Positions 17,706-47,622 of a stretch of 48,120 bases of DNA are shown piece after piece. Made by a program: the position numbers and the translations under genes. Every line of letters starts with the position of its first letter. Position 1 is the stretch's first letter. The notes below the pieces were generated by a model that was given only the letters and a program-made list of their open reading frames with translations, had not been told where the DNA came from and searched no databases. The stretch is from a virus. The DNA is taken from positions 1 to 48,120 of the IMG/VR virus record IMGVR_UViG_3300028008_001377. One strand, written 5' to 3'.

Positions 17706-17728
17706 TAAGTCGCAATAGGGGTTTATAA

Positions 17729-20272: not shown

Positions 20273-20274
20273 TA

Positions 20275-21433: not shown

Positions 21434-21781
21434 ATGGACGAAAGATTAGAACAAGCGTTAGACTTTTCAAACTACATGGTTACACTAAACAACCAGCGTA
21501 GAGTTATTCATGAACAATTTTTAGAAACTTGCGTACATTATTTAAATGGCGGCAAATTTTCTATAACTAGAGATTTGATTACTTTTTGTCAAACATTGCG
21601 AGACAATCAACAAGATAGTGCAATTTTAATTGATGACAATAATAGTCCTGTTGAAGTAGAAGATTTACAAAGTTTTTTAGATGAAATTTTAAACATCTAT
21701 TTTACTACGTCATACGAATATCTTGATGAGTATAATAAAATTAAAAAGAATAGAAAAGTAGAAGGTCTTGTTAATTTATGA
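21434..21781 (+). CDS. Small conserved phage protein of unknown function, 115 aa
   Basis: First gene after the early promoter. It starts at an ATG with GGAG six bases upstream. The protein is acidic, mostly helical and cytosolic, with phrases such as YLNGGKFSITRDLI and ILIDDNNSPVEVEDLQ. I recall similar small proteins near the structural/accessory border in T4-like marine phages, but no function is known to me. It overlaps the following glycosyltransferase gene by ATGA, so the two are translationally coupled. Confidence 0.65.
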   Translation: MDERLEQALDFSNYMVTLNNQRRVIHEQFLETCVHYLNGGKFSITRDLITFCQTLRDNQQDSAILIDDNNSPVEVEDLQSFLDEILNIYFTTSYEYLDEYNKIKKNRKVEGLVNL

Positions 21782-22638
21782 GCAAAGGTGTACTATTATT
21801 TGCACAAAACAATCATTCTATTGATTACATTAAACAAGCAATATTTTGTGCTAAAAAAATTAAAAAACACCTTGGCATACCTGTAGCACTTGCTACAGAC
21901 AATTCTGATTATCTAAAAGCTACATATCCTTATTACGAAAAATACATTAGTCATGTAATAGAGCTAGATTGGTATGATTGCACACAAAAGCGTACATACC
22001 GAGATGGTACTATGAGCAAAAGAGATTTAGAATGGAGAAACCATGATCGTGCAACAGCATATGATATAACACCATTTGATGAAACTATAGTAATGGATAC
22101 TGATTTTATTATTGGAAACAATAGTTTATTAAATGCATTTAATACAGATCAAGACTTTTTAATATTTCGACATATAACAGATCTTAACATGGATAGACCA
22201 GACGAATATAGGTTTAACAAAATTAGTGATCGAAGTATAGATATGTATTGGGCTACAGTATTTTATTTTAAGAAGTCAGAAAGCATGAAACGGTTCTTTG
22301 ATCTTATAACACACATTAAGGATAATTGGAATTTTTATAGACTTACATATCAGATTGTAAATAAAACCTATAGGAATGACTTTGCATTTAGTATTGCGAT
22401 ACACATACTAAATGGTTTCCAACGAACTAATTGGCCAAAAGTTTTACCAGGAAGACTATGGTTTACTAGTGATGCAGATGTACTAATTAAATTAGAAGAT
22501 GAAACTTATACTTTTTTATTAGACAAAAAACATTGGGTAGGACATTATCATGCAGGTTCTATAAAAGATGCAAACATTCATATTATGAATAAATTTGCAT
22601 TAGATAGATTCATTGACGAGGACTTAGTAAATGAGTAA
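21778..22638 (+). CDS. Glycosyltransferase-like protein (GT-A fold, DTD motif)
   Basis: The 286-residue protein begins with a beta strand (KGVLLFAQNN) and carries PFDETIVMDTDFIIG near residues 98-112. There the DTD triplet after a hydrophobic strand fits the metal/nucleotide-sugar binding motif of GT-A glycosyltransferases (GT8-like layout). Conserved aromatic and histidine residues near the C-terminus (WVGHYHAG) could be part of the active site. The next gene is a tandem paralogue. It has no signal peptide or membrane segment, so it should act in the cytosol on a soluble or membrane-face acceptor. The sugar donor and acceptor are unknown. Confidence 0.6.
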   Translation: MSKGVLLFAQNNHSIDYIKQAIFCAKKIKKHLGIPVALATDNSDYLKATYPYYEKYISHVIELDWYDCTQKRTYRDGTMSKRDLEWRNHDRATAYDITPFDETIVMDTDFIIGNNSLLNAFNTDQDFLIFRHITDLNMDRPDEYRFNKISDRSIDMYWATVFYFKKSESMKRFFDLITHIKDNWNFYRLTYQIVNKTYRNDFAFSIAIHILNGFQRTNWPKVLPGRLWFTSDADVLIKLEDETYTFLLDKKHWVGHYHAGSIKDANIHIMNKFALDRFIDEDLVNE

Positions 22639-23470
22639 AGGGTTTTGTTTATTAGCACAGAATAATTCTAACACAAACTATATTCGCCAAGCATATGCTC
22701 TTGCCCTTAGTTTACATCTATATAATAAAGATCAAAAAATTAGTTTAATAACTAATGACGATGTTCCTACTGAATGGCAAAGTGTATTTGACCAAATTAT
22801 TCCTATTCCTTGGGATGACAACGCTAACGATAGTGATTGGAAAATACAAAATCGTTGGAAAGTATATCACGCTAGTCCGTATGATGAAACTATTGTTTTA
22901 GAAGCTGATATGATGTTTACATCAGATATAACTCATTGGTGGAAAGAACTTGCAAAGCGTGAACTATTTGTTGTTAGTAATGTTAGAACATATAGAGACG
23001 AAGTTGTAACTAATAGATTTTATAGAAAAACGTTTGATGCAAATGAATTACCTAACTTATATAGTGCTTTACACTACTTTAAAAAAGGTGATACAGCAAA
23101 AGAGTTTTATAATCTATTAGAAATTATTGTAAACAATTGGGCTTTGTTTTATTCTAAGTACGCACCAAACGAATATCAAAAATGGTGTAGCATTGATGTG
23201 TCAATGGCAATTGCTAGTAAAATATTAGGTAACGAGAAAGATATTACTGATCCTAATAGTTTTATTACATTTACACATATGAAACCACTTGTACAAGGAT
23301 GGTATAATAAACCTGAAAAATGGACAAAGGTTACTGGGAAGTATTTTACTGAAGGTAAACTATTTTTAGGAAATTATCTGCAAAGTAGAGTACTACACTA
23401 TGTAGAAGATGAATTCCTAACAGATGAACTATTAGAGAAGATGGAAAATGGAACTACACTTTTACCTTAA
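22631..23470 (+). CDS. Glycosyltransferase-like protein, tandem paralogue (EAD motif)
   Basis: This 279-residue protein starts MSKGFCLLAQNN, nearly the same as its neighbour, and keeps PYDETIVLEADMMF where the neighbour has PFDETIVMDTDF. The first metal-binding Asp is therefore Glu (EAD). A second conserved block (WCSIDVSMAIA) matches the neighbour's NDFAFSIAIH region and may hold the catalytic acidic residue. The gene overlaps the upstream one by eight bases, with GAGGA upstream of the ATG. The pair could make successive linkages or form a heterodimer. Altered donor choice or loss of activity cannot be excluded. Confidence 0.55.
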   Translation: MSKGFCLLAQNNSNTNYIRQAYALALSLHLYNKDQKISLITNDDVPTEWQSVFDQIIPIPWDDNANDSDWKIQNRWKVYHASPYDETIVLEADMMFTSDITHWWKELAKRELFVVSNVRTYRDEVVTNRFYRKTFDANELPNLYSALHYFKKGDTAKEFYNLLEIIVNNWALFYSKYAPNEYQKWCSIDVSMAIASKILGNEKDITDPNSFITFTHMKPLVQGWYNKPEKWTKVTGKYFTEGKLFLGNYLQSRVLHYVEDEFLTDELLEKMENGTTLLP

Positions 23471-24026
23471 TTTTAAGGATGAGACAGGCGAAATTTGGAA
23501 ACTAACAAATGAGTTAGATACCTCTACGCAATACATTGAGATTGATAGAGAAACAATGTTAGCATTTGCCAATGAAGATAAGAAGATGGAAGACTATATG
23601 GTTATTCCGTCTAGTGACAAAACATTAAAATATGAAATTGTTCTTAAACATAAAGACTTAGATGCGTTTGATGTAGATAAGAGTGTTCATCATCTTCCAA
23701 AGGTAACTAGTATAGATACTAATAATGCATTTGTAATACAACAAAATTTAAACAGTGCAACTTGGACAATTAGTTTAACTAATGAACTTAGAGAATTGTT
23801 GTCAAGTACTACGTACTACAAAGATAAAAACCAATACATATATGTTACGCAAAAAGATAATCCAACAGTATTGTTAGATACTCTTGATATAAAAATGTAT
23901 AATGTATTATATACAGAAAGTTTTGACATGATAGAACAAAATAAAAAGGTTGCTCAAAACCCTAATGTGAGTTTATACTGTGGTAAAGTTTTTGAAAACT
24001 ATTTCCATATTCAGGAGACAGCATGA
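23448..24026 (+). CDS. Unknown protein, 192 aa
   Basis: I do not recognise this family. The protein looks like a soluble mixed alpha/beta protein without Cys clusters, membrane segments or a signal peptide. It overlaps the upstream glycosyltransferase gene by 23 bases and the downstream one by ATGA, so it is embedded in the operon and probably made in step with both. A role as a binding partner or scaffold of the glycosyltransferases is only a guess from position. Confidence 0.6.
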   Translation: MELHFYLNFKDETGEIWKLTNELDTSTQYIEIDRETMLAFANEDKKMEDYMVIPSSDKTLKYEIVLKHKDLDAFDVDKSVHHLPKVTSIDTNNAFVIQQNLNSATWTISLTNELRELLSSTTYYKDKNQYIYVTQKDNPTVLLDTLDIKMYNVLYTESFDMIEQNKKVAQNPNVSLYCGKVFENYFHIQETA

Positions 24027-24916
24027 GTACCATAAAAGTAGTTGATCAAGATATTATCTTTTTGTCATATGACGAACCTAACGCCGAAAAAAATTATGCA
24101 GACCTATGTAGCAAAGTGCCATGGGCAAAACGTGTACATGGTGTAGAAGGTTCAGATGCTGCACACAAAGCATGTGCTGATTTAAGTGAAACAGAATACT
24201 TTGTTACTGTGGATGCAGATAATATTGTTGATCCAGAGTTTTTAAATCAAGAAGTTGATTACGAAGCATTAGGGTTGTCAGCAGAACATGTGTTTAGTTG
24301 GTGTGGCAAGTTGCATGTTAACGGACTAATGTACGGCAACGGCGGATTAAAGATGTGGACACGTAAGTTTGTACACAATATGAAAACACACGAACACTCG
24401 GAAGAAGGTGACGATCGTGGAAAAGTTGAATTCTGTTTTGACGACAAGTACTATCAGTTCAACGAAAACTTTAGTTTGTCTTATACAAATGCAACACCTT
24501 GGCAGGCTTGGCGAGCTGGCTTTAGAGAAGGTGTTAAGATGAGTTTGGATCAAGGATCTAAAGTAGACGACTTGCGTAAAGTATGGTGGCAAAACTATCA
24601 GCGTTTACTTGTTTGGAGCCAAGTAGGTGCAGATGTTAGACATGGTATATGGAGTATCTTAGGTGCAAGGCAAGGATGTTACTTAACAAACTGTACGCCT
24701 TGGGATTATGCTAATGTGCGTGATTTTGAATGGCTAAACAACTTTTGGGAAACAGAAGTAAAAGATGTAGATCCACTTGAAACATCTATTCACTTAGGAA
24801 CTGAGATACTAAAAGGCACTGGTGCCGATATATCTACTACACCTCTTGATGAGCAACAAAGTAAGTTTTTTAAAAGTGTATATCAAAACACTCCAAGGAT
24901 AATTAGGACTAGATGA
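24023..24916 (+). CDS. Glycosyltransferase-like protein (family with FLSYDEPNAE start)
   Basis: This 297-residue protein has an N-terminal strand with IIFLSYDEPNAEKNY (about residues 10-25) and the DAD motif in YFVTVDADNIV (about 54-64), as in GT2-like GT-A enzymes. The phrase LMYGNGGLKMWTRKFVHNM (about 100-118) is shared with the gene at 33762 (LLYGYGGVKLLPRKLTLNM), so the two are paralogues. It ends by overlapping a radical SAM gene by ATGA, and the paralogue is also followed by a radical SAM gene with the same overlap. Sugar and acceptor are unknown. Confidence 0.6.
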   Translation: MSTIKVVDQDIIFLSYDEPNAEKNYADLCSKVPWAKRVHGVEGSDAAHKACADLSETEYFVTVDADNIVDPEFLNQEVDYEALGLSAEHVFSWCGKLHVNGLMYGNGGLKMWTRKFVHNMKTHEHSEEGDDRGKVEFCFDDKYYQFNENFSLSYTNATPWQAWRAGFREGVKMSLDQGSKVDDLRKVWWQNYQRLLVWSQVGADVRHGIWSILGARQGCYLTNCTPWDYANVRDFEWLNNFWETEVKDVDPLETSIHLGTEILKGTGADISTTPLDEQQSKFFKSVYQNTPRIIRTR

Positions 24917-26286
24917 GTAACGAACAGCGTATACAAATACTAGAAGAAAAACGTGAAAAGATAAACAACGTAAGTTGTTCATTCTGTACGGCTAAGTGGT
25001 TACAAACTACGCTACTATTACAAAACGGTTACAATCACAGTTGCCATCATCCTGCTCCACATAAGATTCCGTTGCATGAAATTAAAGCAAATCCAGCGGC
25101 ATTGCACAATAGTAAATTTAAAAAAGAACAACGTGCTAAAATGCTTAACGGAGAACGTCCTAGTGAATGCGGTTACTGTTGGAAGATTGAAGACCTAGGT
25201 AAAGATTACTTTAGTGATAGACATTATAAAACAAGTGATACTTGGGCTTGGGATAGATTTGAAGATATTGCTAAAAGTAATCCACAAGACGATGTGTATC
25301 CAAGTTACTTAGAAGTATCATTTAGCAATGCTTGCAACTTTGCGTGTGCATATTGTTCACCTGAGATTAGTAGTAAGTGGATGGAAGACGTAAAGCAAAA
25401 CGGTCCTTACCCAACTAAACATGGGGCACACAATTTAGATTATTTAGAACAAACAGGAAAAATGCCAATACCTAATAGAGAACATAATCCTTATGTAGAA
25501 GCATTTTGGAAATGGTTTCCTGATGCATTGCCGCATTTAAAAGTATTGCGTATTACAGGCGGCGAGCCTACTATGTCAAAAGACACTTGGAAGTTGTTAG
25601 ATTACTTAGTAGAACATCCACGCAAAGGTTTAGACATTGCAATCAATACAAATGGATGTGTAGAAGATGTGTTAATTGACAAACTAATTTTAAAAGTTAA
25701 CAAACTTGCAGAAGTAGGAGTTAAGGTTGACATTTACACTAGTTTGGAAAGTACAGGCGCACAAGCTGAATATGCCCGCGATGGCCTTGACTATTTTAAG
25801 TGGCTTGTTAATATAGATAAAATACTTAAAGAAACTAAAAGCACAGTTGCAATGATGACAACTATTAATATATTAAGTATTCCTAGCTTTCTTGATTTTG
25901 TAATGACAGTAATGGACTTCCGTAAGGAATACAATACTAGTTTTGATGTTAATAGAATACCACTAAGCATTAATATAATGCATTGGCCACCGCATCTACA
26001 GTGTACACTACTTGATGTTGATTATCGTACAAAGACAGCAAACACTATTGAAAAGGTATGCGAACAATGGTTGAAGTATTATACTAAAGAAAAATATGCT
26101 AGATTATATTTAGAAGAGTTTGATCAGATAAAACGATTGTGTGATTACTTGCGTAACACAGAACCAGCAATAGAACACAGAGCCGACTTTGTAAGATACA
26201 TACATGCATACGATAAGAGAAGAGATAAAAACTTTGTGGAAGTATTTCCGCAATATGAACAGTTATTAGAGGAATGGAATGCCTAA
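24913..26286 (+). CDS. Radical SAM protein, subfamily A (N-terminal CHH domain)
   Basis: The 457-residue protein has two Cys-rich parts. The N-terminal part (about residues 15-90) carries CSFC, HSCHHPAPHKIP, a short ALHN motif and ECGYCWKIED; this probably binds an auxiliary Fe-S cluster or zinc. The radical SAM core starts with CNFACAYC at about 141-148, which binds the catalytic 4Fe-4S cluster, and contains ITGGEP for AdoMet. The C-terminal DKRRDKNFVEVFP motif is shared with the A and B subfamilies here. The layout agrees with the phage 'twitch-domain' radical SAM families. AdoMet cleavage is expected; the substrate is unknown. Close paralogues lie at 26279 and 36464. Confidence 0.85.
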   Translation: MSNEQRIQILEEKREKINNVSCSFCTAKWLQTTLLLQNGYNHSCHHPAPHKIPLHEIKANPAALHNSKFKKEQRAKMLNGERPSECGYCWKIEDLGKDYFSDRHYKTSDTWAWDRFEDIAKSNPQDDVYPSYLEVSFSNACNFACAYCSPEISSKWMEDVKQNGPYPTKHGAHNLDYLEQTGKMPIPNREHNPYVEAFWKWFPDALPHLKVLRITGGEPTMSKDTWKLLDYLVEHPRKGLDIAINTNGCVEDVLIDKLILKVNKLAEVGVKVDIYTSLESTGAQAEYARDGLDYFKWLVNIDKILKETKSTVAMMTTINILSIPSFLDFVMTVMDFRKEYNTSFDVNRIPLSINIMHWPPHLQCTLLDVDYRTKTANTIEKVCEQWLKYYTKEKYARLYLEEFDQIKRLCDYLRNTEPAIEHRADFVRYIHAYDKRRDKNFVEVFPQYEQLLEEWNA

Positions 26287-27727
26287 AAAGCCTGAAGAAA
26301 ATCTTCAACAATATAGAGATAGAGTTTTAGATAGCAAAAGTAAAAGTTTTTGCGGAGCAAAATGGTATAACGCTACTACATGGTTAGGTAGTGGAACAAC
26401 AGCTAGTTGTCATCATCCGCCTGCACATCAAATTCCATTAGTTGAAATACAAGACAATCCGTCTGCAATTCATAATACTAAGCATAAGAAAGAAATGCGC
26501 CGTATGATGCAAAATGGCGAACGTCCTAGCGAATGTGAATATTGCTGGAAAATGGAAGATATGAAAAAAGATGCTGTTAGCGACAGGACTTTTAAAAGCA
26601 TTATCTATTCAGATGAACAATTACAACAAGCATATGAAGCAGATGCAAATGATAACACTAATCTTAAAACGTTTGAAATTGCGTTTGACAGAACGTGTAA
26701 CTTAGCATGTAGTTATTGTAATGCAAGTTTCTCAACTACGTGGGCTAAAGATATTAAGAAGAATGGCGAGTATACAAACTTAGTTAGTGACGGTGCTGGC
26801 GCATTTAAGCAAGACGGTAGTTGGACACAGCCTTACAAAAATGATGAAGACAATCCATACATACAAGCATTTTGGAAATGGTGGGAAAGCGGTCTAGCAG
26901 ATAGTTTAGAAGAACTACGTGTTACAGGTGGCGAACCTTTAATGAGTGGAAACACATGGAAGTTGTTTGATTGGTTTAACGCACAAGATACTGATATGCG
27001 TTTTGCTATTAACAGTAATCTAATTGCTAAAGATGATATTATTGATAAGTTAATTCAAAAAACTCAAGGTATGAAACATTTTGACTTGTATACTAGTTGT
27101 GAAGCAACAGGCGCACAAGCTGAATACATTCGTGATGGGTTAGATTACGAACAGTGGCTTACTAATATTAAGCGTATGCTAACAGAAGGTAATTGTAATA
27201 ATATTAATATTATGATGACTATTAACAGTTTGTGCTTGTTTAGTATTACTGACTTTTTAGACGAAGTATACAAACTAAAAGAACTTACACAAAGTAGAAC
27301 ACCAACTGTAAGTCTAAATCTATTACGTTTTCCGAGCTTTCAAAGCCCATTAGCACTACCTAATCATATTAAAGATTATTTACATAATCAATTTAGTACA
27401 TGGTGGGAAGCACATAAAGATGATATTGGATGGCACGAATTTGAAAAAGCAAGTATTGAACGTTTGATAGATTACTTGGTAACTGTAGATGCTCCACATA
27501 GACGCACAAGTAACCCTACTACATTATGGCGTGATTTTAAAACATTTTATCAACAGTATGATGTACGCAGAAACAAAAGTTTAAGTGTATTTCCTAAAAT
27601 ACTAACAGATTGGGTTGATAGTATTCCAGATACTGATGCAAGCATTATGGAACTTGCTGAAAAAGAAGGCTGGATACTAAAACCCAGCTCGAGGAATATT
27701 GATGATCCCCTTGCGTCCTACGATTAA
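26279..27727 (+). CDS. Radical SAM protein, subfamily A
   Basis: Paralogue of the preceding gene, 482 residues. The N-terminal domain has FCGAKWYN, SCHHPPAHQIPL, AIHN and ECEYCWKMED. The catalytic motif CNLACSYC is at about 140-147 and RVTGGEPLM follows. The C-terminal motif reads YDVRRNKSLSVFP, followed by a unique tail of roughly 45 residues. The start overlaps the previous gene by eight bases, and AGAGGA lies five bases upstream. The tandem arrangement with the first A protein suggests that they act on related substrates or as a pair. Confidence 0.85.
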   Translation: MPKKPEENLQQYRDRVLDSKSKSFCGAKWYNATTWLGSGTTASCHHPPAHQIPLVEIQDNPSAIHNTKHKKEMRRMMQNGERPSECEYCWKMEDMKKDAVSDRTFKSIIYSDEQLQQAYEADANDNTNLKTFEIAFDRTCNLACSYCNASFSTTWAKDIKKNGEYTNLVSDGAGAFKQDGSWTQPYKNDEDNPYIQAFWKWWESGLADSLEELRVTGGEPLMSGNTWKLFDWFNAQDTDMRFAINSNLIAKDDIIDKLIQKTQGMKHFDLYTSCEATGAQAEYIRDGLDYEQWLTNIKRMLTEGNCNNINIMMTINSLCLFSITDFLDEVYKLKELTQSRTPTVSLNLLRFPSFQSPLALPNHIKDYLHNQFSTWWEAHKDDIGWHEFEKASIERLIDYLVTVDAPHRRTSNPTTLWRDFKTFYQQYDVRRNKSLSVFPKILTDWVDSIPDTDASIMELAEKEGWILKPSSRNIDDPLASYD

Positions 27728-29057
27728 TCTGTATTACGATAAAATTATAGATGAAATGCCAGTACCTAATGGCGTAACTGACTACAAGTTTAGTGGTGAC
27801 ACTTACAGAATTCCTATGAATAGGTCTAGAGTGTCACCGATTAATTTTATTACAATATTATTTAATACACTACGGGTACTAAACGTAGAACGAGTTAACT
27901 TATTCTCCGGCAATGAAACAGCAAAGAACTTATTTTATCCTTTAGAATTAAATGCAGGCACCTCTTGGTATGATGCTGAATTTGAAGACTATATTCCTAT
28001 TAAGTCTATTAATAAAATTAGAAAAGGAAAAATGAAGTTATTGATATTTGCTCCAAGATTAGCACACGACTATAGCGTTATGTGGAAACTACGTACAAAG
28101 TTAGATATGCTAGGTAGCAAAGGTATTACACGAGATAAGATTTATATTGTATTAGGAGATATAAGTAGGTCGTATAGAAAATGTTTTGATAATCCAAATG
28201 TATACGGAATTGACTGGTGGCAAATATATGCACAATTAGCTTATAAAAGTAGATACGGTCAAGAAGATTATTTCTGGGCTTTTAGAGACCCAACATTTCA
28301 TGCCTTATTACCAGAGGAATATGAAAAAGAAGATTTTAAATTTGAAAATTGGCAACCTAAGCGTATATTTACAGCACTTACTGGTAATAGAGCAATACAT
28401 AACACAGCATTGATAAGTGAACTAATATATACAGGCCTTGATGCACATGGTGAATATAGTTACAATTTAAATGGCGACTTGACTCCTAAAGATTATGATA
28501 ATTTTAGAATAATTGATAAAACTCGTAGTGACGATTACATTGCAAAAAAGAAAGAAATAATTAATAGTTTAACATATGTAAAGAAACTTGATAGAACTTT
28601 AACCCAAATTAGTACTCGTCCGCTAAACATTGACAAGTCGTACTACGAAGATAGTCTTATTACTATTGTTAGCGGTTCTTTTTCTCCTATGTTTGATCAA
28701 CACTACTTAGATGAAATTGATGTATGTGCGCCCGGCTTAGGAATATGGAGACAAATAGCCAAAGGGCACCCACTCATGGCTCTTGGTTGTTTAAATACTA
28801 TGGGATACCTAAGTGGCGAAGGATACTATCTTCCTAACCCAATTACAAACCAATTTTATGATAGAGTTTCAAAAACTCCTCAAAAAGTTAAGTTAATGTG
28901 TGAAAATATTAGTAGAATGGCAGAATATAGCGAACACGAAATAAAAGATAAGGTTGAAACATTAATACCTTACATGGACAAGAATAAACAGAAGTTTTTC
29001 AATATGAAACATCAACGCAAATTTGAAAAACTATTTGGAGAAATGAATTATGAATGA
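27702..29057 (+). CDS. Putative glycosyltransferase (GT10/exostosin-like layout), 451 aa
   Basis: The ATG at 27702 is preferred over the TTG at 27699 because GAGGAA sits at the right distance (27691-27696). I do not recognise the family with certainty. The middle part has RIFTALTGNRAIHNTALISEL, and the late part IWRQIAKGHPLMALG followed by GYLSGEGYY. The gene at 40464 has the same order (FLFYNGKLRPHR, then IYKPMLNLHPFIIIG, then EKGYY), which resembles the acceptor and nucleotide-sugar ends of fucosyltransferase/exostosin-type GT-B enzymes. It lies between two radical SAM genes. The function is inferred. Confidence 0.45.
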   Translation: MIPLRPTINLYYDKIIDEMPVPNGVTDYKFSGDTYRIPMNRSRVSPINFITILFNTLRVLNVERVNLFSGNETAKNLFYPLELNAGTSWYDAEFEDYIPIKSINKIRKGKMKLLIFAPRLAHDYSVMWKLRTKLDMLGSKGITRDKIYIVLGDISRSYRKCFDNPNVYGIDWWQIYAQLAYKSRYGQEDYFWAFRDPTFHALLPEEYEKEDFKFENWQPKRIFTALTGNRAIHNTALISELIYTGLDAHGEYSYNLNGDLTPKDYDNFRIIDKTRSDDYIAKKKEIINSLTYVKKLDRTLTQISTRPLNIDKSYYEDSLITIVSGSFSPMFDQHYLDEIDVCAPGLGIWRQIAKGHPLMALGCLNTMGYLSGEGYYLPNPITNQFYDRVSKTPQKVKLMCENISRMAEYSEHEIKDKVETLIPYMDKNKQKFFNMKHQRKFEKLFGEMNYE

Positions 29058-30315
29058 TGATTTAAAAAATAGCCCAGGATTTTGTGTTGCACCTTGGATG
29101 CATTTACATGTTATTAATGATGGTAGATCGTTTGCATGTTGTCAAACACCGTTACGTGAAGAAAATAGTTTTGGTAATGTTAAGCATGAAAAACTAATCG
29201 ACATTGTAAATAGCCCTCGTGCTAAAAAAATGCGTAAAGATATGCTAGACGGAAAGCCGTTGCCTAGTGCATGTGAACGTTGTGTTTCAAAACAGCAGAA
29301 TAACCTAAATACTATGCGTACTGGATTAAATTCTAAATGGTTTGACGAAACAAAAGACCTAATCGCAAGTACAGCAGAAGATGGTACGCTGTCAGAACTA
29401 CAACTAAAATACTGGGACTTTAGATTCAGTAACTATTGTAACCTTGCATGTACAACTTGCTCGCCTTTGTTTAGTACACAGTGGTCAAAAGACTTTCAAA
29501 AGTTACATCCTGGAGCAGACAAATATAGTGACACACAATTAATTGATCTTAAAGAAGCTAATGTATTCTGGGATGATATCGAAGAACATCTTGATACTAT
29601 GAAAGAAATACACTTTGCTGGAGGCGAGCCGTTAATTATGCCTGAGCACTGGCGTATACTTAAAATGCTTGAAGAAAAAGAAAAATTTGATATTGACTTA
29701 CGTTACAGTACTAATGGCACAACATTAGGAACTAAAAAACAAGACGTAATGGAAATGTGGAAGAAATTTAATTATGTACATCTAAGTATAAGTATTGACG
29801 GAGAAGGTGATGCATTTGAACATATACGATATAAAGGCAAGTGGGATCAAACACTAGTTAATCTTAAAAAGATTAGAGCTAGTCGTGCTGTTGATTACTG
29901 GTTCCATCCTACTGTCAGTATTCTTAATATATTTAGACTTACTGAACTGCATCACGAACTACACATAAATGATCTAATGCCATTAGAGTCAGTACATCCA
30001 TTACGAGGGTTCCATATGGAAAATTATTGGGTTGATAGATTCCATATTAATCCTTTGTTTACGCCTGAGTATTATAGTATTACTGTGTTGCCAGAATTAT
30101 TAAAAGAACAAGCTGCTGACAAGATTACAAAATATGGTAAAAAGTTAGAAGCTAATACAGGTATTCCATTTAGTGGCTGGCAAAATATTATAGACTTTAT
30201 GTATCAACATGATAACAGTCATTTATGGAAACAGTTTAAGTGGAAGTCAAAGCAAATAGACGATATAAGAAATACAGATGTATTTGAATTAAATCCAGAG
30301 TTACGAAATGGCTAG
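29050..30315 (+). CDS. Radical SAM protein, subfamily B (N-terminal twitch-like domain)
   Basis: The 421-residue protein starts with FCVAPWMHLHV, then SFACCQT, SFGNVKHEKLIDIVNSPRA and ACERC: an N-terminal Cys domain of the kind named 'N-terminal twitch' in radical SAM families. The core has CNLACTTC at about 130-137 and FAGGEPLIM. The C-terminus has IDDIRNTDVFELNPEL, the motif shared with subfamily A. It overlaps the upstream gene by eight bases, with GGAG ahead of the ATG. Paralogues lie at 42265 and 46357. Substrate unknown. Next to it are an SGNH hydrolase and an orphan whose paralogue also sits beside a subfamily B gene. Confidence 0.85.
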   Translation: MNDDLKNSPGFCVAPWMHLHVINDGRSFACCQTPLREENSFGNVKHEKLIDIVNSPRAKKMRKDMLDGKPLPSACERCVSKQQNNLNTMRTGLNSKWFDETKDLIASTAEDGTLSELQLKYWDFRFSNYCNLACTTCSPLFSTQWSKDFQKLHPGADKYSDTQLIDLKEANVFWDDIEEHLDTMKEIHFAGGEPLIMPEHWRILKMLEEKEKFDIDLRYSTNGTTLGTKKQDVMEMWKKFNYVHLSISIDGEGDAFEHIRYKGKWDQTLVNLKKIRASRAVDYWFHPTVSILNIFRLTELHHELHINDLMPLESVHPLRGFHMENYWVDRFHINPLFTPEYYSITVLPELLKEQAADKITKYGKKLEANTGIPFSGWQNIIDFMYQHDNSHLWKQFKWKSKQIDDIRNTDVFELNPELRNG

Positions 30316-33740: not shown

Positions 33741-33755
33741 AAAAGATTGTATAAT
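33727..33755 (+). promoter_or_regulatory. Second perfect sigma-70 consensus promoter
   Basis: TTGACA at 33727-33732 and TATAAT at 33750-33755 are again exactly 17 bases apart. The -35 box overlaps the end of the radical SAM gene. The expected start point falls at about the A of the ATG at 33762, so the transcript would have almost no leader. The region from the -10 box on (TATAATATATA) is identical over 11 bases to the promoter at 21405. Confidence 0.8.
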
Positions 33756-33761
33756 ATATAG

Positions 33762-37720: not shown

Positions 37721-37752
37721 AATCTAAACTACTAAAATCAAAATATCTATCT

Positions 37753-37761
37753 AATAAATAC
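37753..37761 (+). promoter_or_regulatory. T4-type late promoter-like motif before the desaturase operon
   Basis: AATAAATAC lies in the 61-base gap before the first desaturase gene, 20 bases ahead of its ATG, with AGAGGA at 37769-37774 as the ribosome site. It shares ATAAATAC with the copies at 13005 and 17697. It suggests that the genes from 37782 on follow late timing, unlike the block before them. Confidence 0.5.
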
Positions 37762-37781
37762 TTACTACAGAGGATTCACTT

Positions 37782-39942: not shown

Positions 39943-40474
39943 CATCAAACTAGATTATGATTTTGATATATTCTTAGCCGCAGATTATAGTATCCATGAA
40001 GGTAGTTGTATTGCACATCAAGTACACGAGCTAACTGATATTCATGCAGACTATGGAGGCTTCCCGGATAGTTACGATAGCGAAAATACAAAAATACGTC
40101 AACTATGGTGGGATAATACACAAGTAAATTTTGATACTCTTGCTCAACAACTAAGCATGGAAGTTATTACTGTTAGCTCGATACTACAGCCACCAGGTAA
40201 TACTATTCCAATACATCGAGATACATTTTTTCAAATCAACAAACAGTATCCTAACGATCCAAGATTAAAAGTACGTGCTAATATATATTTAGAAGATTGG
40301 AAAGTAGGCCATTTCCTACAATATCAACAAGAAGATAAAAGTTGGCATAATAGTACACATTGGAAGCAAGGTGAAGGATGGATGTGGGATAGTAAACATT
40401 TACACCTTAGTGCTAATGCAGGAATGTCTCCTAAATATACTTTACAAGTTAGTGGGTTCTTAAATGAGTGGTGA
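39935..40474 (+). CDS. 2OG-Fe(II) oxygenase-like (Asp/Asn hydroxylase-type cupin) protein
   Basis: The start at 39935 is chosen because AGGAAG lies at 39922-39927 and an upstream frame extension would overlap the previous gene by over 100 bases. The 179-residue protein has HRD (His94, Asp96) after SILQPPGNTIPI, then the strand ANIYLEDW, and a distal His (155 or 157) in WMWDSKHLHLSANAG, close to the arrangement of aspartyl/asparaginyl hydroxylase-like oxygenases. It would use Fe(II), O2 and 2-oxoglutarate to hydroxylate an unknown target. The neighbours suggest lipid or glycan decoration. Confidence 0.6.
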   Translation: MYNIKLDYDFDIFLAADYSIHEGSCIAHQVHELTDIHADYGGFPDSYDSENTKIRQLWWDNTQVNFDTLAQQLSMEVITVSSILQPPGNTIPIHRDTFFQINKQYPNDPRLKVRANIYLEDWKVGHFLQYQQEDKSWHNSTHWKQGEGWMWDSKHLHLSANAGMSPKYTLQVSGFLNEW

Positions 40475-41666
40475 TATAGTTCTATGGTATGATGATTTAG
40501 AAGAAAATAACTGTGTAATTGAAAACGCTGTTTATTTAAATAGATCTATTTTAAAAAAGCTAACACATAACAATATTAAGTTTTCTGTAAGACAAACATC
40601 TGAAGAATTAGATAATTCAAAAACTAATGTTTATGTAATTGAACTACACAATGTACACGCAGGTGTAGATATATTTTCTAAAATACCTCAACATACTAAA
40701 AACTTGTTTAAAGCAGGACTTTCTGTTATGTTATATTATCCTAGAGAAGGTCACTCATTAGAAGAGTGGTTCGTAAATATACATAACAACTTACAAAAAA
40801 ATAATTTACTAGATGCTAATATATTATTTGTATTCGGTGACTATGATATAGAAGTTAATTATGCGTTGTTCTTAAACAAATATAAACTTGATAGTTTTGT
40901 TACTCCAATCGCAATAGATTATTTTGCAGGTGATTATTTTGAAAATGTATCAGCATATAATACTTTTGATAATGTTGACGCAGACAAAAAATATGATTTT
41001 TTATTTTATAATGGTAAACTTAGACCACACAGATTATATGCTGTAGCAGAACTTGCTCGTTTGCGTATTTTAAAAAGGAACTTAGTTAGTTTAACAGCAA
41101 CAACTCATACCTCTGGTTTATCTTCATTAGATGATTGTTTAAGAGTTTTAAAACAAGTTGGCTTAAAAACAAAATATATAACTAACTTTGCAAGGTCATT
41201 TAAGCCAATTATTTTAGATATGCCTTCTGATAAGTTTTCTCAAGATAGTATACATAATACAGAGCTATGGCACTATACTGATACATTTTTCAGTATAATA
41301 AGCGAAACTACAATAGACAATCGATTTATTACAGAAAAAATATATAAGCCTATGTTAAATTTACATCCTTTTATAATTATTGGTGCACCTAGGATACTTG
41401 AATTACTAAAAGAAAAAGGATATTATACTTTTGAAGAAATGTTTGATGAAAGTTATGATACCGAATTAGACCCAGTAGTGCGTATTAATAAAGTTATTAG
41501 TAATGTTAATAATTTTTCAAAAAAGACATACAAAGAAAAACATAAAATTTACAAATCAATTATTCCTAAATTGCTACATAATAGGAATCATTATTATAGT
41601 ACAGCAACTACGTCAAGCGTAAATGAATTTTCAAAGATTTTTAAAACATTAGAGGAAAGCACATGA
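40464..41666 (+). CDS. Putative glycosyltransferase (exostosin/GT10-like), 400 aa
   Basis: The C-terminal half contains FSIISET, FITEKIYKPMLNLHPFIIIG and ILELLKEKGYYTFEEMFDESYD (about residues 275-335), a pattern of nucleotide-sugar binding ends in GT10 fucosyltransferases and exostosin-like GT-B enzymes (F.TEK....L...P.I..G). FLFYNGKLRPHRLYAVAEL in the middle fits the conserved arginine block of these families. The gene at 27702 has a similar order of elements. It lies between an oxygenase-like gene and a methyltransferase gene, with 11- and 4-base overlaps. Sugar and acceptor are unknown. Confidence 0.6.
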   Translation: MSGDIVLWYDDLEENNCVIENAVYLNRSILKKLTHNNIKFSVRQTSEELDNSKTNVYVIELHNVHAGVDIFSKIPQHTKNLFKAGLSVMLYYPREGHSLEEWFVNIHNNLQKNNLLDANILFVFGDYDIEVNYALFLNKYKLDSFVTPIAIDYFAGDYFENVSAYNTFDNVDADKKYDFLFYNGKLRPHRLYAVAELARLRILKRNLVSLTATTHTSGLSSLDDCLRVLKQVGLKTKYITNFARSFKPIILDMPSDKFSQDSIHNTELWHYTDTFFSIISETTIDNRFITEKIYKPMLNLHPFIIIGAPRILELLKEKGYYTFEEMFDESYDTELDPVVRINKVISNVNNFSKKTYKEKHKIYKSIIPKLLHNRNHYYSTATTSSVNEFSKIFKTLEEST

Positions 41667-42265
41667 AGGTAGATATACAAGATGTATTGTTCTGGATGGA
41701 TGCAATTCGAAACAGCGAAGACAAATACCGTACACTTGAAAGCTTCTGGAAAGGTCAAGTTAATAGTAAAGTTTGGTTAGCAACAGAGTTATACAGTGTA
41801 ATATCTAAAACAAAACAGAATAGCATAGTCATATACGGTGGTTGGAACGGAGTGCTGGCAAGTATACTCTTTAACAGTCGCCTACCGTTAAACAGCATTA
41901 CAAGCGTGGATATAGACCCTGTGTGCGAAGATATAGCAAACACAGTAAACAAGCGTCAAGAGATGCAAGGTAAGTTTAGTGCTGTAACAGCAGATATGTG
42001 CGAATACACTACTAATGCTGATGTAGTTATAAACACTAGTTGCGAACACATTACACAAGAACAGTACGAACAATGGTTAAACAATCAACCAGATGATGCA
42101 CTAATTGTACTACAAAGTAATAACTATTTTAAACATGAAGAACATGTTCGATGCTCAACAGATTTAGATGATTTTATAAAAATGTCTAACATCCAGGTCC
42201 TGTATAGTGGAGAGTTAGAAACGCCTAAATACAATAGATATATGGTAATAGGAAAGAAAAATTAA
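41663..42265 (+). CDS. Class I SAM-dependent methyltransferase
   Basis: This 200-residue protein has IVIYGGWNGVLASILF (about residues 55-70), a variant glycine-rich motif I. SVDIDPVCEDIAN follows, where the Asp holds the AdoMet ribose. VTADMCEY and DVVINTSCEHI come next as motifs II/IV. There is no DNA-methyltransferase DPPY motif, so the acceptor is probably a small molecule, glycan or protein. The stop shares one base with the start of the next radical SAM gene (TAATG). Confidence 0.72.
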   Translation: MKVDIQDVLFWMDAIRNSEDKYRTLESFWKGQVNSKVWLATELYSVISKTKQNSIVIYGGWNGVLASILFNSRLPLNSITSVDIDPVCEDIANTVNKRQEMQGKFSAVTADMCEYTTNADVVINTSCEHITQEQYEQWLNNQPDDALIVLQSNNYFKHEEHVRCSTDLDDFIKMSNIQVLYSGELETPKYNRYMVIGKKN

Positions 42266-43653
42266 TGTCTGACTTAGAAAAATACCAAGCTGAAATAGCA
42301 AAAGTAAGTGGCACTGAAACATTTTGTATACTGCCTTGGATACACTTTGCTACTAGACCTAATGGCGATATGCGTTTATGTTGTTCGTCTAATGCAAGTG
42401 GCGCTGGCGGAGATCACACGGTTGGACTTGTTAAAATGGAAGATGGCAAGCCAGCAAACTTTGGTAGAGAAACACCAATGGAAGCATGGAATAACGACTA
42501 CATGAAAAGTGTACGTACAACTATGCTTGATGGTAAAATACCTGCAAGTTGTACAAAATGTTTCCAAGAAGAAAAACAAGGTGTTGTAAGTAAACGTGTT
42601 TGGGAAACAGGAACTTGGCACCAAGACGACAATGGTGTAGACATACCTGAACTTATTCGTCAAACAAAAGAAGATGGTACAGTACCAGAAAATTTAAAAT
42701 ATTTGGATCTAAGATTAGGACATACATGCAACATTAAGTGTGTAATGTGTAGCCCGCATGATTCAAGTAAGTGGGTTGCAGACCATAAAAAACTTATTCC
42801 TGTACTACAAGATCCTGAAGTTAAAAGACAAATGCAATGGGATCGTAAAACTTTTAATAATAAGTGGCACGAGAAAGATACCTTCTGGGAAGAAATGTAT
42901 GCACAAATTCCTAACCTAAGACAAGTGTACTTTGCTGGAGGCGAGCCTCTAATGATTAAAGAACACAAGATGTTTATTGAAGAAATATTACGTCAAGGAT
43001 ATCAAGATAAAATACTTCTACGTTATAACTCTAATGGATTATTAGTTGACGATGATCTAATTGAAATGTGGAGCAAGTTTAAAAAAGTTAAGTTTGCTAT
43101 TAGTATGGATGCTAGTCACGAACGTGATGAATACATACGCTTTCCTACAGACTTTGAAACTGTAGAAAAAACTCTACATATGCTTGACAACACTCCTGAC
43201 AATATACAAACAAGTTTAGCAACAGCAATACAAATATTTAATGTGAAGCACTTGCCCGACTTTATGAAGTGGAAATTAGAAAGCGGATTTAAAAAGCTAA
43301 ACAGCGGAACACTACCAGGTGGCGTACAAATGGGCGGCGGTCTAGTTAATATGCATTTACTATATATTCCTACTTTTCTTAGTATACAAATACTACCGGA
43401 AGAAGATAAACAAGAAGTTAAAGAACGTTTTATGGATTTTAAAGACTACTTGTGGAACAACTATAGACAAGATGACGAATATTGGAAACATAATCCTTAT
43501 GGCTGGAAACGTTGGGAAGCTGTTCTTAATCACATGAATGCACAAGACAATAGTCATTTACTTCCGGGCTTTAAAGAATATACAAATAAACTTGATAAAA
43601 TTCGCAACTTAAATGCTGCAAAAGTATTTCCAGAGTTAGCACATTTACTATGA
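42265..43653 (+). CDS. Radical SAM protein, subfamily B
   Basis: The 462-residue protein opens with the N-terminal twitch-like domain (FCILPWIHFA, MRLCCSS, MEAWNNDYMKSVRTTML, SCTKCFQEE). The catalytic motif CNIKCVMC is at about 155-162 and FAGGEPLMI follows. The C-terminal LDKIRNLNAAKVFPEL motif is shared with the A and B families. Compared with its paralogues it has an insertion of about 20 residues in the N-terminal domain (SGAGGDHTVG). It is coupled to the upstream methyltransferase by a one-base overlap. The substrate is unknown. Confidence 0.85.
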   Translation: MSDLEKYQAEIAKVSGTETFCILPWIHFATRPNGDMRLCCSSNASGAGGDHTVGLVKMEDGKPANFGRETPMEAWNNDYMKSVRTTMLDGKIPASCTKCFQEEKQGVVSKRVWETGTWHQDDNGVDIPELIRQTKEDGTVPENLKYLDLRLGHTCNIKCVMCSPHDSSKWVADHKKLIPVLQDPEVKRQMQWDRKTFNNKWHEKDTFWEEMYAQIPNLRQVYFAGGEPLMIKEHKMFIEEILRQGYQDKILLRYNSNGLLVDDDLIEMWSKFKKVKFAISMDASHERDEYIRFPTDFETVEKTLHMLDNTPDNIQTSLATAIQIFNVKHLPDFMKWKLESGFKKLNSGTLPGGVQMGGGLVNMHLLYIPTFLSIQILPEEDKQEVKERFMDFKDYLWNNYRQDDEYWKHNPYGWKRWEAVLNHMNAQDNSHLLPGFKEYTNKLDKIRNLNAAKVFPELAHLL

Positions 43654-44678
43654 CAGATCCTATAAACATAATAAACTTAGATGCACAGCCTACAAAAATA
43701 GTAAGTCTGCAGCCTAAAGAAGTATTAGATATAAGATTCTGGCCTACAGATATATGTAATTTTAATTGTACCTATTGTTTTCCAGGAAGTAAAGACGCTG
43801 TTTATAGATATCCTAAAAATATTGAAACTGTAATAAAAAACTTTAACTTACTTTTTGATTTGTATAAAGATAAGCACAATAAGCAAAAGTTTAATATTAA
43901 TCTTGTTGGAGGCGGCGAGCCAACAATGTGGCCTCATTTTAAAAAGTTTTGTGATGGAATTAGACAACATCACGATGTAGAACTTAAAGTTACTACTAAT
44001 GGTAGTAGATCCTTAAGATGGTGGGAGCAAAACGGATTATCAGTTGATAAAGTTACACTAAGTGTTCATCATGAGTTTGCAGACATTGATCATACTATTA
44101 AAGTTTTAGATTTTCTTCATAGTTCAGGTACAATTTGTACAGCACTGGTACTTATGGATGCAGAGTATTTTGATAAATGTAAAGGTATAATAGATAGATT
44201 CCAAGAAAGTAAATATCCTTGGTTTATTGAAGCAAAGCCAATTGTAGACTTTGAAGGTAAAGATAGTTTAAGTTATACCGAAGAACAAAAGCAGTATATG
44301 AAACAAGATTTAAAGAGAATACCAGACTCGGATTTTGTATTAAACAATATGCATTTGTTTAGATCACATGATAGTATTGCTGTTTACAAAGATGAAACTA
44401 TAGAGCCTAAGCGTACTAGTGATTATATAAACTCTGATACTAATTATTATAAAGACTGGAATTGTAATGTTGCTTTAGAGAATTTAGTTATTATATTTGA
44501 TGGCACAGTAACTGGTAGTTGTAACGCTGAATTATTTAAAGACTATAACATAAATTTATTTGCAGAAGATTTTGAAGAAAAATTTAATAAGGCATCATTT
44601 AATTTATCAACAATAAAGTGTCCATTTGGAAAATGTTCTTGCCAGCCAGATACACATATTACTAAGTGGAAGTTTTAG
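43650..44678 (+). CDS. Radical SAM protein, subfamily C
   Basis: The 342-residue protein has CNFNCTYC at about 36-43, VGGGEPTMW as the GGEP motif, and the C-terminal W.CN pattern (DWNCNVALENLVIIFDG), then GSCN and KCPFGKCSCQPDTHITK. The last part aligns with the minus-strand gene at 44662 (ICTRKWCTCVADIPLTK). It is the last plus-strand gene: its 3' end overlaps that gene tail to tail by 17 bases. One auxiliary cluster in addition to the catalytic one is inferred. The substrate is unknown. Confidence 0.83.
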   Translation: MTDPINIINLDAQPTKIVSLQPKEVLDIRFWPTDICNFNCTYCFPGSKDAVYRYPKNIETVIKNFNLLFDLYKDKHNKQKFNINLVGGGEPTMWPHFKKFCDGIRQHHDVELKVTTNGSRSLRWWEQNGLSVDKVTLSVHHEFADIDHTIKVLDFLHSSGTICTALVLMDAEYFDKCKGIIDRFQESKYPWFIEAKPIVDFEGKDSLSYTEEQKQYMKQDLKRIPDSDFVLNNMHLFRSHDSIAVYKDETIEPKRTSDYINSDTNYYKDWNCNVALENLVIIFDGTVTGSCNAELFKDYNINLFAEDFEEKFNKASFNLSTIKCPFGKCSCQPDTHITKWKF

Positions 44679-45567
44679 TTAGGGGAATATCTGCAACACA
44701 CGTACACCATTTACGTGTACATATAATAGGAGCAACGGGTGATTCAAAAGTTCCATTATAAATGTTACCAAGACTACCGCCTACTCGACATGTAGCACGA
44801 TGTACATCACCATCCCAATTTATCATTAAACTTTCTATACCAGCATTACACTTCCAGCCTTCGAATTGATTTAATTTGTGTTTGATAATATCGTTGGCAT
44901 GTATTTTAGTTTCTTGGTCCACTACACAGTTTGCCTTCACTGTTGCAGTTTTACTCAGTACCCATTCTAAATCTTTTTCTTTGTAGCGCATATCATCAAA
45001 ATAATCACGTTCTTCTGCAGAAGTCCATCTTATACGTCTACACACATAAGGAATATTATGTCCTTCCAGCAAAGATGCTGATTCTCTAACTTGGTCCATA
45101 TGTTTGTGATGCGCCATAAGATTGACTTGATACAGTGTATCTTTACTTTCCATATCAAGTAATTGAGAATACCTAACAATGTTTTCAGCAGCTCGACGAG
45201 TATGTTCATTGTCAAAGTGCAAACTAAACACCCATTGATCAACAGGCTGTTTGATATACCATTCTGCACTACGCAAGCCATTAGTTGTAACACTAAGCCA
45301 CTGTAACCTTGCTCTAGCACATTCTAATATATCATTAATCTTAGGATGTACAGTAGGTTCACCGCCAGTTAAACTTAGGCGTATAGGCTTGCCAATTTTT
45401 TCTAATTCGTAAATGGTATTAACCATAACGTCTAAGTCAGTATGCGGACTAAAGTTATCGTGTATTTCCGCAGGACAATATGCACAATCTAAGTTACAGC
45501 GTTTGCCTATATTCCATTCTACATGTATAGAGTTTTGATGTCCCCATCTGCTTTCTATTGAGTGCAT
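44662..45567 (-). CDS. Radical SAM protein, subfamily C (minus strand)
   Basis: The 301-residue protein has CNLDCAYC at residues 24-31, SLTGGEPTVHP as the GGEP motif, and the C-terminal pattern GWKCNAGIESLMINWDGDV, ATCRVGGSLGNI and ICTRKWCTC. The Cys layout and the LGNI phrase resemble SPASM/twitch-type auxiliary cluster domains. It is the last gene of the minus-strand operon and converges on its own paralogue. It starts at an ATG 13 bases inside the upstream gene. The CxxxCxxC spacing is normal, so the QueE type is unlikely. Confidence 0.83.
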   Translation of the reverse strand: MHSIESRWGHQNSIHVEWNIGKRCNLDCAYCPAEIHDNFSPHTDLDVMVNTIYELEKIGKPIRLSLTGGEPTVHPKINDILECARARLQWLSVTTNGLRSAEWYIKQPVDQWVFSLHFDNEHTRRAAENIVRYSQLLDMESKDTLYQVNLMAHHKHMDQVRESASLLEGHNIPYVCRRIRWTSAEERDYFDDMRYKEKDLEWVLSKTATVKANCVVDQETKIHANDIIKHKLNQFEGWKCNAGIESLMINWDGDVHRATCRVGGSLGNIYNGTFESPVAPIICTRKWCTCVADIPLTKTST

Positions 45568-46364
45568 ACTACACCTTTAACTGTCTTAAACATTTTTAGT
45601 TTTTCTATATCTACTTTATTTGCTAAATCTGCAACAGGAATCATACCTAGATTTAAATTTTTAAATTTAAAAGTTTGTTGTTTGATCCAAGAATTTAAAT
45701 ATAATTTTCTTAATAGGTAGGTTGCGTAAGGAGTAGTAGGTCCAAACTTAACCATGAAATCTGCACTATAGTATTCTTGTGGACGTACTCCTTCTGCAAT
45801 ACTGTCTTTGTCTTTAAAAACATCTAATACAGTTTTTCCTACTTGACAGTAGTTAATATAAACAGTACCATGTGTCCATCTAAAAGTAAAGTGAGTCATG
45901 TCTTTTTCAGTAAGATTAATTATAGGCCTATCTTTAAATGTAACAACTACTGTAGGATGATTTTTTGTTCTAGTTTCTGATTCTAATTTATGTATTAACA
46001 CATTAAAACGTTGAACACATTCTTGTATTTCTAACGGAGCACAATTAAACCATTCTGTGCCTTTGTTAACATCTCCACGAAGTTCTTCAAAAAACTTATG
46101 CAAGTAGTTTAAATCTCCTTGAATATCAGTACTACTAGTACTAATACAACGGTCAATACAAACTTCATACTCGTTTACTTTAGCAATACACTCGTTAAGT
46201 TCAGATATAAGGTCGTGTGCGCCCCAGTTAGTAAACCTATCTGTTTCGTATAATTCGTAGTTTTGTAATAATTGAATAAACCATTTTTTAGCAATATCTG
46301 TACTTCTTACAGTAAATGGTATACTAACGTCTTCTTTGCCGTTTGTTAATATAAGGTTAAACAT
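45555..46364 (-). CDS. Unknown protein of a cassette-specific family (copy 2), 269 aa
   Basis: Paralogue of the gene at 31116 with the same order of landmarks, including VYINYCQVGKTVLDVF (VYLHYAQTGKTWYEAY there) and LHKFFEELRG. The ATG at 46364 is preferred, since it gives an eight-base overlap with the upstream stop; a GTG at 46388 would add eight residues. It lies directly between a subfamily B and a subfamily C radical SAM gene. No named motif, signal peptide or membrane segment was seen. It may be a partner or substrate-binding protein of the radical SAM enzymes (inference). Confidence 0.6.
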   Translation of the reverse strand: MFNLILTNGKEDVSIPFTVRSTDIAKKWFIQLLQNYELYETDRFTNWGAHDLISELNECIAKVNEYEVCIDRCISTSSTDIQGDLNYLHKFFEELRGDVNKGTEWFNCAPLEIQECVQRFNVLIHKLESETRTKNHPTVVVTFKDRPIINLTEKDMTHFTFRWTHGTVYINYCQVGKTVLDVFKDKDSIAEGVRPQEYYSADFMVKFGPTTPYATYLLRKLYLNSWIKQQTFKFKNLNLGMIPVADLANKVDIEKLKMFKTVKGVVCTQ

Positions 46365-47622
46365 ACGGCTTAAACTCTGGATTGGCACTAAGGAAATCTT
46401 GGTTACGAGTTTTGTCTAATCTCTTGTTGAATTCTATGCAATCGCCCCAGTGTGTCTTATGCATATCTTTTGCTTCGATAAAATTAATATTATCTTGTAT
46501 CTGTTGTAAAGTTATTTGTTTAACAATGTCATGTTCTTTGACTAGTTTATAATCAAGTACTTTAGACTTCATTTGCTCTAGTTCGTTAACAACTTTTGTT
46601 TTTAACATTTGAGGTATAACTTGAGCACTTAGTGACATTGGATAATTTACTCTGTGTGAATAGAATACAATTTCCATTTCTTGTAAGAAGTATTCCATAA
46701 CATCGCAAATTTGTAAAATGTTATTTGCTTGTACAGTAAATGCACCTACTACTCTACTTACATTAGGAAAGCTCTTAAATACTTTTACATTCTCTTCTAT
46801 TTCACTAAACTTGCCATTGCCTCTGATATATTCATATACATCGTGTATACCGTCTATACTTACATTTACAGCAACACTTTTAAACTTAGGCCAATAGTCA
46901 TGTATAGTGCGCCCGCCTTTTATGCCTAGTGTAGTACCGTTTGTAGCATATTTTATTTCTATGTTTTTACCATATGGCGCAAGCATGTCTAGTATCTTAT
47001 AATGGTAAGGGTCCATTAACGGTTCGCCGCCTGCAAACTCTACACGTCTAAAGTAAGGTAACAGCTTTTCAAAACTTGCCCACCAGTTATCTGAGTTATC
47101 AAACGGACCAATATACTGTCCTGGTTTGTCTACTAGTGCATCAACAGTTGGTATAAGATAATTGTTTTCTTTCTTGTAAAATTCTGTTACTTGATCCCAA
47201 TCTTTCCAACTTGTACTGTCCAAAGGATTGCACATACGGCACTTTAAGTTACATAAGTTATTGAGCTTAATTTCCATTGTAGGAAGTTCAAAAGGCATGC
47301 TGTAATCGTCGTCTAAAGCGTCTAATGCATCAGGGTATAAGTTGACCCTAGCTTCAGGTATTACCCCCGCTATATGACGCTGTCGTAAGCTCTGTACACC
47401 CTGATCTTCAAGGTCAAAGCACGGTTTACATACATCCGGACGTTCGTTGTTAAGTACTTGTTTACGTACTTCACGCATCTTATCGCCATTCCAAACTTCT
47501 TCTAAAGTTTCATTTTGAATCCATCCAATAGGCTGACTACGACAGCATACTTTGATAGCACCGTCTTCTCGTGTAGCTAATCCTGTAAAAGGATGCATAC
47601 AAAATGTACAACTCTTATGCAT
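46357..47622 (-). CDS. Radical SAM protein, subfamily B (minus strand)
   Basis: The 421-residue protein starts at an ATG within an eight-base overlap with the QueC-like gene. The N-terminal domain has CTFCMHPF, IKVCCRSQ, LEEVWNGDKMREVRKQVL and VCKPCFDLED. The catalytic motif CNLKCRMC is at residues 124-131 with FAGGEPLMD. The C-terminal motif is LDKTRNQDFLSANPEF. The extra CxxC at residues 5-8 gives more cysteines than the other B members have. The substrate is unknown. Confidence 0.85.
   Translation of the reverse strand: MHKSCTFCMHPFTGLATREDGAIKVCCRSQPIGWIQNETLEEVWNGDKMREVRKQVLNNERPDVCKPCFDLEDQGVQSLRQRHIAGVIPEARVNLYPDALDALDDDYSMPFELPTMEIKLNNLCNLKCRMCNPLDSTSWKDWDQVTEFYKKENNYLIPTVDALVDKPGQYIGPFDNSDNWWASFEKLLPYFRRVEFAGGEPLMDPYHYKILDMLAPYGKNIEIKYATNGTTLGIKGGRTIHDYWPKFKSVAVNVSIDGIHDVYEYIRGNGKFSEIEENVKVFKSFPNVSRVVGAFTVQANNILQICDVMEYFLQEMEIVFYSHRVNYPMSLSAQVIPQMLKTKVVNELEQMKSKVLDYKLVKEHDIVKQITLQQIQDNINFIEAKDMHKTHWGDCIEFNKRLDKTRNQDFLSANPEFKPYV

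Follow-up and report, generated by a model that had tools for sequence, protein, structure and literature searches.

The window analysed here is a stretch of 48,120 nucleotides, a 48 kb fragment of the viral record IMGVR_UViG_3300028008_001377. It opens with an ORF of 4332 amino acids (11-13009) that precedes the tail genes; we take it, by position only, to resemble the large VrlC bordering the host recognition region of pelagimyophages. The tail proteins (13031-21378) are followed by a dense island of enzyme genes (21434-48120), with a coding density of 99.7% across 21434-47622 (Table 1). ORFs were called mechanically. The 29 genes counted in a preliminary description of this DNA are accounted for, 28 being complete and one truncated by the end of the window.

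A T4-like host recognition cluster is marked by gp23 together with a tail-fibre island, and both are found on relatives of the window, itself a 48 kb fragment. T4 gp23 is encoded on five of the larger viral relatives, including G031, G015, G020 and G004, and G031 (159.6 kb) carries the tail proteins and the first island genes in the order of the window. With gp23 seen on these relatives, we take the region for the host-recognition cluster of a T4-like marine phage not yet in culture. The tail module of Pseudomonas phage PA5oct has the same order (large protein, 13031-like protein, fibres, FFNAGG protein), and in the PA5oct record EST35_0123 and its neighbours are annotated as detected by ESI-MS/MS. 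Unlike the window, PA5oct has no annotated glycosyltransferase (GT) or radical SAM gene after this module.

Table 1 Features of the window. Fractions give the fibre loci that carry the family.
Position	Strand	Feature	Evidence
13031..13645	+	Tail protein; homologue of PA5oct EST35_0126 (42%, MS-detected)	
13649..15757	+	Tail protein (Phage Tail Collar domain); its first 80 aa resemble those of 15761 and 17729	
15761..17689	+	Tail fibre-type protein	
17729..19309	+	Tail fibre-type protein, homologous to MS-detected PA5oct EST35_0124; C-terminus resembles PHROG tail fibre families	
19343..20272	+	Fibre protein, R-x-FFNAGG motif; homologue of MS-detected PA5oct EST35_0123; starts the fixed unit	
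20275..21378	+	FFNAGG fibre protein, second copy	
21434..21781	+	115-aa protein, unit member, 83/83	
21778..22638	+	Putative GT8 (glycogenin-like) glycosyltransferase, 81/83	Profile
22631..23470	+	Putative GT8 (glycogenin-like) glycosyltransferase, 83/83	Profile
23448..24026	+	~190-aa protein, fast-evolving, conserved slot	
24023..24916	+	Predicted GT-A-fold glycosyltransferase (family GTx), 74/83	Fold modelled on paralogue 33762
24913..26286	+	Radical SAM, N-twitch NF033640, clade A	PF04055, NF033640, cysteines
26279..27727	+	Radical SAM, N-twitch NF033640, clade A; under Pfam cut-off	
27699..29057	+	Unassigned; shares 19% identity with 40464 (alignment of 3 rows)	
29050..30315	+	Radical SAM, N-twitch NF033640, clade B	Profiles, tree
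30308..31135	+	SGNH-hydrolase-like, read from sequence; no Pfam match	
32757..33740	+	Radical SAM with C-terminal SPASM domain	Pfam
33762..34430	+	Predicted GT-A-fold glycosyltransferase (GTx), core cassette	Model, alignment
34427..35491	+	Radical SAM (core D); among solved structures nearest to BlsE, a cytosylglucuronate decarboxylase	
35472..36464	+	Radical SAM (core C) with 3 + 4 conserved cysteines; present too in 22/369 Bdellovibrionota genomes	
36464..37720	+	Radical SAM, N-twitch NF033640, clade A	Profiles
37782..38567	+	Fatty-acid desaturase PF00487	Pfam
38564..39328	+	Fatty-acid desaturase PF00487	Pfam
39827..40474	+	Oxygenase-like (2-oxoglutarate/Fe type by sequence reading; no Pfam match)	
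40464..41666	+	Protein without profile or PDB match	
41663..42265	+	Methyltransferase-like, often in core cassette; named by eye	
42265..43653	+	Radical SAM, N-twitch, core B	NF033640
43650..44678	+	Radical SAM, lineage of its own	Pfam, tree
44662..45567	-	Radical SAM, lineage of its own	Pfam, tree
46357..47622	-	Radical SAM, N-twitch NF033640, clade B	Profiles, tree
47615..48118	-	PP-loop ATPase, QueC-like, cut by window end	

The unit that begins with the fibre gene at 19343 and runs to the N-twitch radical SAM gene at 24913 has, behind the fibre, the gene for the 115-aa protein, a pair of putative GT8 (glycogenin-like) genes, the gene for the 190-aa protein and that for the predicted GT-A enzyme, in this order. 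To examine its conservation we fetched uncultured viral loci with two different FFNAGG fibre queries; 83 of them (fibres 36-100% identical to the queries) extend 6 kb or more past the fibre. The 21434 and 22631 families follow the fibre in all 83 loci, the 21778 family in 81, the GT-A family (24023) in 74 and at least one radical SAM gene in 77. These loci were ranked and picked by similarity to window genes or sister genes, so they are related rather than independent and describe relatives of the window phage, not phages at large. The slot between 22631 and 24023 is filled by a fast-evolving family of ~190 aa, and BLAST joins 41 of its 59 distinct sequences, including that of the window and that of one bacterium. 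On one Bdellovibrionota contig, L261, the fibre, 21434, both GT8, slot, GT-A and radical SAM genes keep the same order. The unit lies at the end of this 140 kb contig, which also holds core genes (see below); the 40 kb before the unit look bacterial, and their combination with it could conceivably be an assembly error.

The assignment of the transferases is based on profiles and on a structural model. Glycogenin is a match of the 21778/22631 profile, with E 1.5e-5; of 16 members, one matches Pfam GT8 (E 0.002). In the GT-A family D59 is invariant and D57 nearly so, giving an acidic D-x-D. The model of 33762 has a pLDDT of 93.7, and its fold hits in the PDB are mostly glycosyltransferases at modest TM scores of 0.3-0.44. 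We classify 24023 and 33762 as predicted glycosyltransferases of GT-A fold with an acidic D-x-D. One viral relative encodes a 1057-aa ORF with repeated GTx matches, apparently several domains in tandem (L110:4224-7397).

CxxxCxxC occurs in eleven ORFs at the coordinates first reported, with one start corrected: the gene listed as 35481 starts at a GTG at 35472. All eleven match Pfam Radical_SAM PF04055 (E 1e-12 to 4e-5), ten of them above the family cut-off, and a search of all six frames of the record yields these eleven and no others. The protein below the cut-off, 26279, matches NF033640 with E 1e-90. Such profile E-values rule out chance matches, and by CxxxCxxC and PF04055 the eleven ORFs are assigned to the radical SAM superfamily. 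The number claimed in the preliminary description thus stands, and so does its CxxxCxxC motif; in place of the GGEP-type motif that it gave for all eleven, 32757 has GSGEP and 34427 has CGNYGDP.

Its four groups, A to D, do not survive as families. Those termed A (24913, 26279, 36464) and B (29050, 42265, 46357) had been described as distinct kinds, A with a "CHH domain". All six proteins match NF033640, the NCBIfam model of twitch domain-containing radical SAM proteins, over their full length (E 1e-90 to 1e-118; 304 to 397 bits, curated cut-off 170 bits). The N-terminal auxiliary cluster cysteines expected of this N-twitch family are present, four being invariant across the six (C25, C44, C86 and C89 of 24913). 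Since both groups share these four residues, what was called the "CHH domain" is a variant of the twitch domain, and in a tree with proteins of other phages A and B form two separate clades of one family. NF033640 is named from its domains, not from a reaction, and the window holds six divergent members in one viral island. The remaining five proteins are separate lineages in the tree, at least five in all, among them the three (35472, 43650, 44662) that had been joined as group C. The SPASM-like character given to group D holds for 32757, which has a SPASM match in Pfam; 34427 has none, and the two separate in the tree.

Three of the radical SAM genes, 42265 (core B), 35472 (core C) and 34427 (core D), form with a GT-A gene, and often with the 41663 methyltransferase-like family, a core cassette shared with bacteria; in the chromosomes of some bacteria of predatory type the three make up a small operon. 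A search for the N-twitch family among 84,980 genomes, mostly metagenome-assembled (MAGs), gave 80 kept hits (73 loci), and most carriers were Bdellovibrionota MAGs. Among Bdellovibrionota, 22 of 369 genomes carry core C, with scores mostly of 600-655 bits (other radical SAM proteins reached at most 84 bits in a first test); Pseudomonadota were rejected as carriers, with 0 of 399 genomes. Among 17 Bdellovibrionota-type loci with at least 12 kb of context, core B is present in 16 and a strong core D match in 13, by our own count. Core B is 84-93% identical in 80 viral loci (one identical contig set apart) and ~45% identical in Bdellovibrionota. One fully supported branch of the core C tree parts phage from bacterial sequences; in the core B tree, the bacterial side includes a clade made up of one phage, L068, and the contigs L222, L214 and L261.

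Several apparent cellular carriers were discarded. L214, filed under "Acidimicrobiaceae", is a misbinned contig with phage gene content, and L161, L164, L206 and L208 have phage gene content or tail genes; all five are phage or phage-like contigs filed in bacterial MAGs. Insertion of the core guided by tRNA genes was also dismissed, a tRNA directly adjoining it in a single locus (L217). In two loci (L220:13684-15186 and L231:13964-15469) a GT2 glycosyltransferase with an N-terminal CxxxCxxC adjoins the core cassette, possibly a radical SAM remnant fused to a glycosyltransferase.

Other island genes are less well defined. The names of 30308, 39827, 40464 and 41663 were given by eye, for 41663 because it has no Pfam or PDB match, and a PDB sequence search of the GT-A, core B, methyltransferase-like and 40464-like proteins gave no meaningful match. 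A C-terminal motif of 40464 is reminiscent of GT10/fucosyltransferases. The desaturase pair (37782-39328) is rare in related islands, with hits in one viral locus only. Two further ORFs, 31116-32081 and 45555-46388, are matched in 17 viral loci each and may be paralogues. Relatives of the island carry an alternative oxidase gene (L138:14012-14590; PF01786, E 6e-67) and a radical SAM gene with an HMPTM zinc ribbon (L095:13657-14709; PF23545). One T4-like phage contig that is rich in radical SAM genes and was binned as Acidimicrobiaceae carries a gene resembling tryptophan halogenases (Pfam E 6e-62) and another such gene recognised by eye (L273:8593-9600 and 10273-11532; G050:C81).

The preliminary description proposed an undescribed multi-step modification system. 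A multi-gene modification system is supported, and it recurs in marine phages with conserved order: 27 of 48 viral records, chosen for homology, carry 8 to 17 radical SAM genes, and 36464 matches at least 599 stretches in IMG/VR. Among cultured phages 24913, 33762, 35472 and 21778 have no match and 42265 has three remote hits (22-24%). As to number, "undescribed" does not hold, since earlier reports had made the abundance of radical SAM genes in marine phages known. Like the window, the T4-like marine phage genome TARA_ERS488813_N000010 is rich in them, with 12 (Nishimura 2017, PMC5332604); the accessible part of that paper frames them as Fe-S cluster metabolism and does not treat gene order, fibre linkage, the GT set or bacterial relatives. 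The pelagimyophage host recognition cluster is likewise hypervariable, with tail fibres, glycosyltransferases (GT8 the commonest) and radical SAM cassettes (Zaragoza-Solas 2020, PMC7029224). The accessible part of this study only touches on the cassettes and proposes O-chain modification, without the fixed unit or a link to Bdellovibrionota. A Tasman Sea study found radical SAM, RmlD and glycosyltransferase genes enriched in viruses (PMC7150976). Compared with the open-access literature, what appears new is the structure, a fixed fibre-GT-radical SAM unit and a core shared with bacteria; no prior description of either was found there, which does not prove absence. The fibre-linked unit, its two GT8 genes and the shared core were also missing from the preliminary description.

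Tentatively, and with less than even confidence, we read the island as a system for glycan assembly and radical tailoring, whose acceptor would most likely be the adjoining FFNAGG fibre, with the cell envelope as a close rival. The GT8 enzymes 21778 and 22631 and the GT-A enzymes 24023 and 33762, which we infer to be active, would attach a sugar chain to the acceptor, the FFNAGG protein encoded just upstream (19343/20275). The radical SAM proteins would act on the same product, altering sugars or sugar-bearing residues via the 5'-deoxyadenosyl radical, assisted by the methyltransferase-like, oxygenase-like and other enzymes, to give a chemically diversified virion adhesin. This reading draws on the fixed unit, the MS-detected PA5oct homologue of the fibre, the same gene order on L261, the glycogenin and GT-A matches, the dense coding without a precursor gene and, like its rival, the enrichment of sugar genes in viral loci with the core and around core C in Bdellovibrionota. 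Carbohydrate-acting radical SAM enzymes (BlsE, DesII, AprD4) are among the closest solved relatives, at low identity; the match of core D to BlsE, a sugar-nucleoside enzyme, is weak.

It is also possible, and we consider this a serious alternative, that the island remodels the envelope glycan (O-chain or capsule) of the infected cell, for example to block superinfection, with the radical SAM enzymes tailoring nucleotide sugars or the polymer. Sugar-nucleotide enzymes are common in the islands: 41 of 84 viral loci that bear the core have UDP-sugar dehydrogenases or epimerases, against 12 of 75 others, sets that were fetched differently. In several Bdellovibrionota the core cassette lies in polysaccharide-type loci (families assigned by eye), and GT2 genes are close by: in 8 of 17 genomes one is no more than ~10 kb away from core C, where 1.4 are expected (P=2.7e-5; P=0.003 after dropping close relatives; neighbours counted by hand from tables). 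The FFNAGG fibre was found in 1 of 359 Bdellovibrionota genomes (search A8), and nearly all core C carriers lack it at the threshold used. The core can therefore act without the fibre, which is not supported as its sole substrate. These fibre-less operons favour an envelope glycan, as does the published reading of the GT8 genes as O-chain modification by Zaragoza-Solas et al. (PMC7029224). Against it stands that the unit is almost always tied to the gene of a virion fibre and not to other loci; this tie favours the fibre as acceptor, and one bacterium has fibre and unit together.

SPASM and twitch architectures are common among peptide-modifying radical SAM enzymes, and the best structural match for core B is SkfB, in a fold search that does not tell sugar from peptide substrates. 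Together with the fibre linkage, this would fit direct, RiPP-like modification of the fibre or another protein (cross-links, epimerisation, methylation), the sugars being a separate matter. We regard this as improbable. At its coding density the island has no space for the gene of a short precursor peptide; none lies beside the radical SAM genes or within L217, the minimal operon on a chromosome, and L217 and L268 share no small ORF, so a RiPP precursor/maturation cluster was rejected. The rarity of the fibre among core C bacteria and the strong GT association also speak against it. Least probable, and in our view very unlikely, is that the enzymes make or alter a small molecule or nucleotide for counter-defence (viperin-like, or of the queuosine/DNA-base type). 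The island has a QueC-like PP-loop gene and weak viperin, MoaA and QueE hits, but the latter reach at most 48 bits against NCBIfam equivalog cut-offs of at least 180 in the ten radical SAM proteins scanned (all except 34427). No curated viperin, MoaA, QueE or QueC cut-off is reached among the window proteins scanned, and the linkage is to fibres and glycosyltransferases. It is mainly the missing precursor gene and family matches that make peptide-only and small-molecule roles less likely.

The fixed gene order singles out the FFNAGG fibre as the first acceptor candidate. A wider form of the fibre reading, which we hold as rather doubtful, is a new kind of virion maturation: fibre glycans built by dedicated GT8 and GT-A enzymes would be rewritten by N-twitch radical SAM proteins, and the three-gene radical SAM core would be exchanged between marine phages and Bdellovibrionota, which both live by attachment to other cells. 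If the proposed reading of the island is right, abundant ocean viruses would alter their attachment proteins or host surfaces by a radical chemistry met chiefly in the pathways to antibiotics and cofactors. The NF033640 family would gain its first function, the pile-up of radical SAM genes in marine phages would be explained, and phage host recognition would have a testable tie to Bdellovibrionota.
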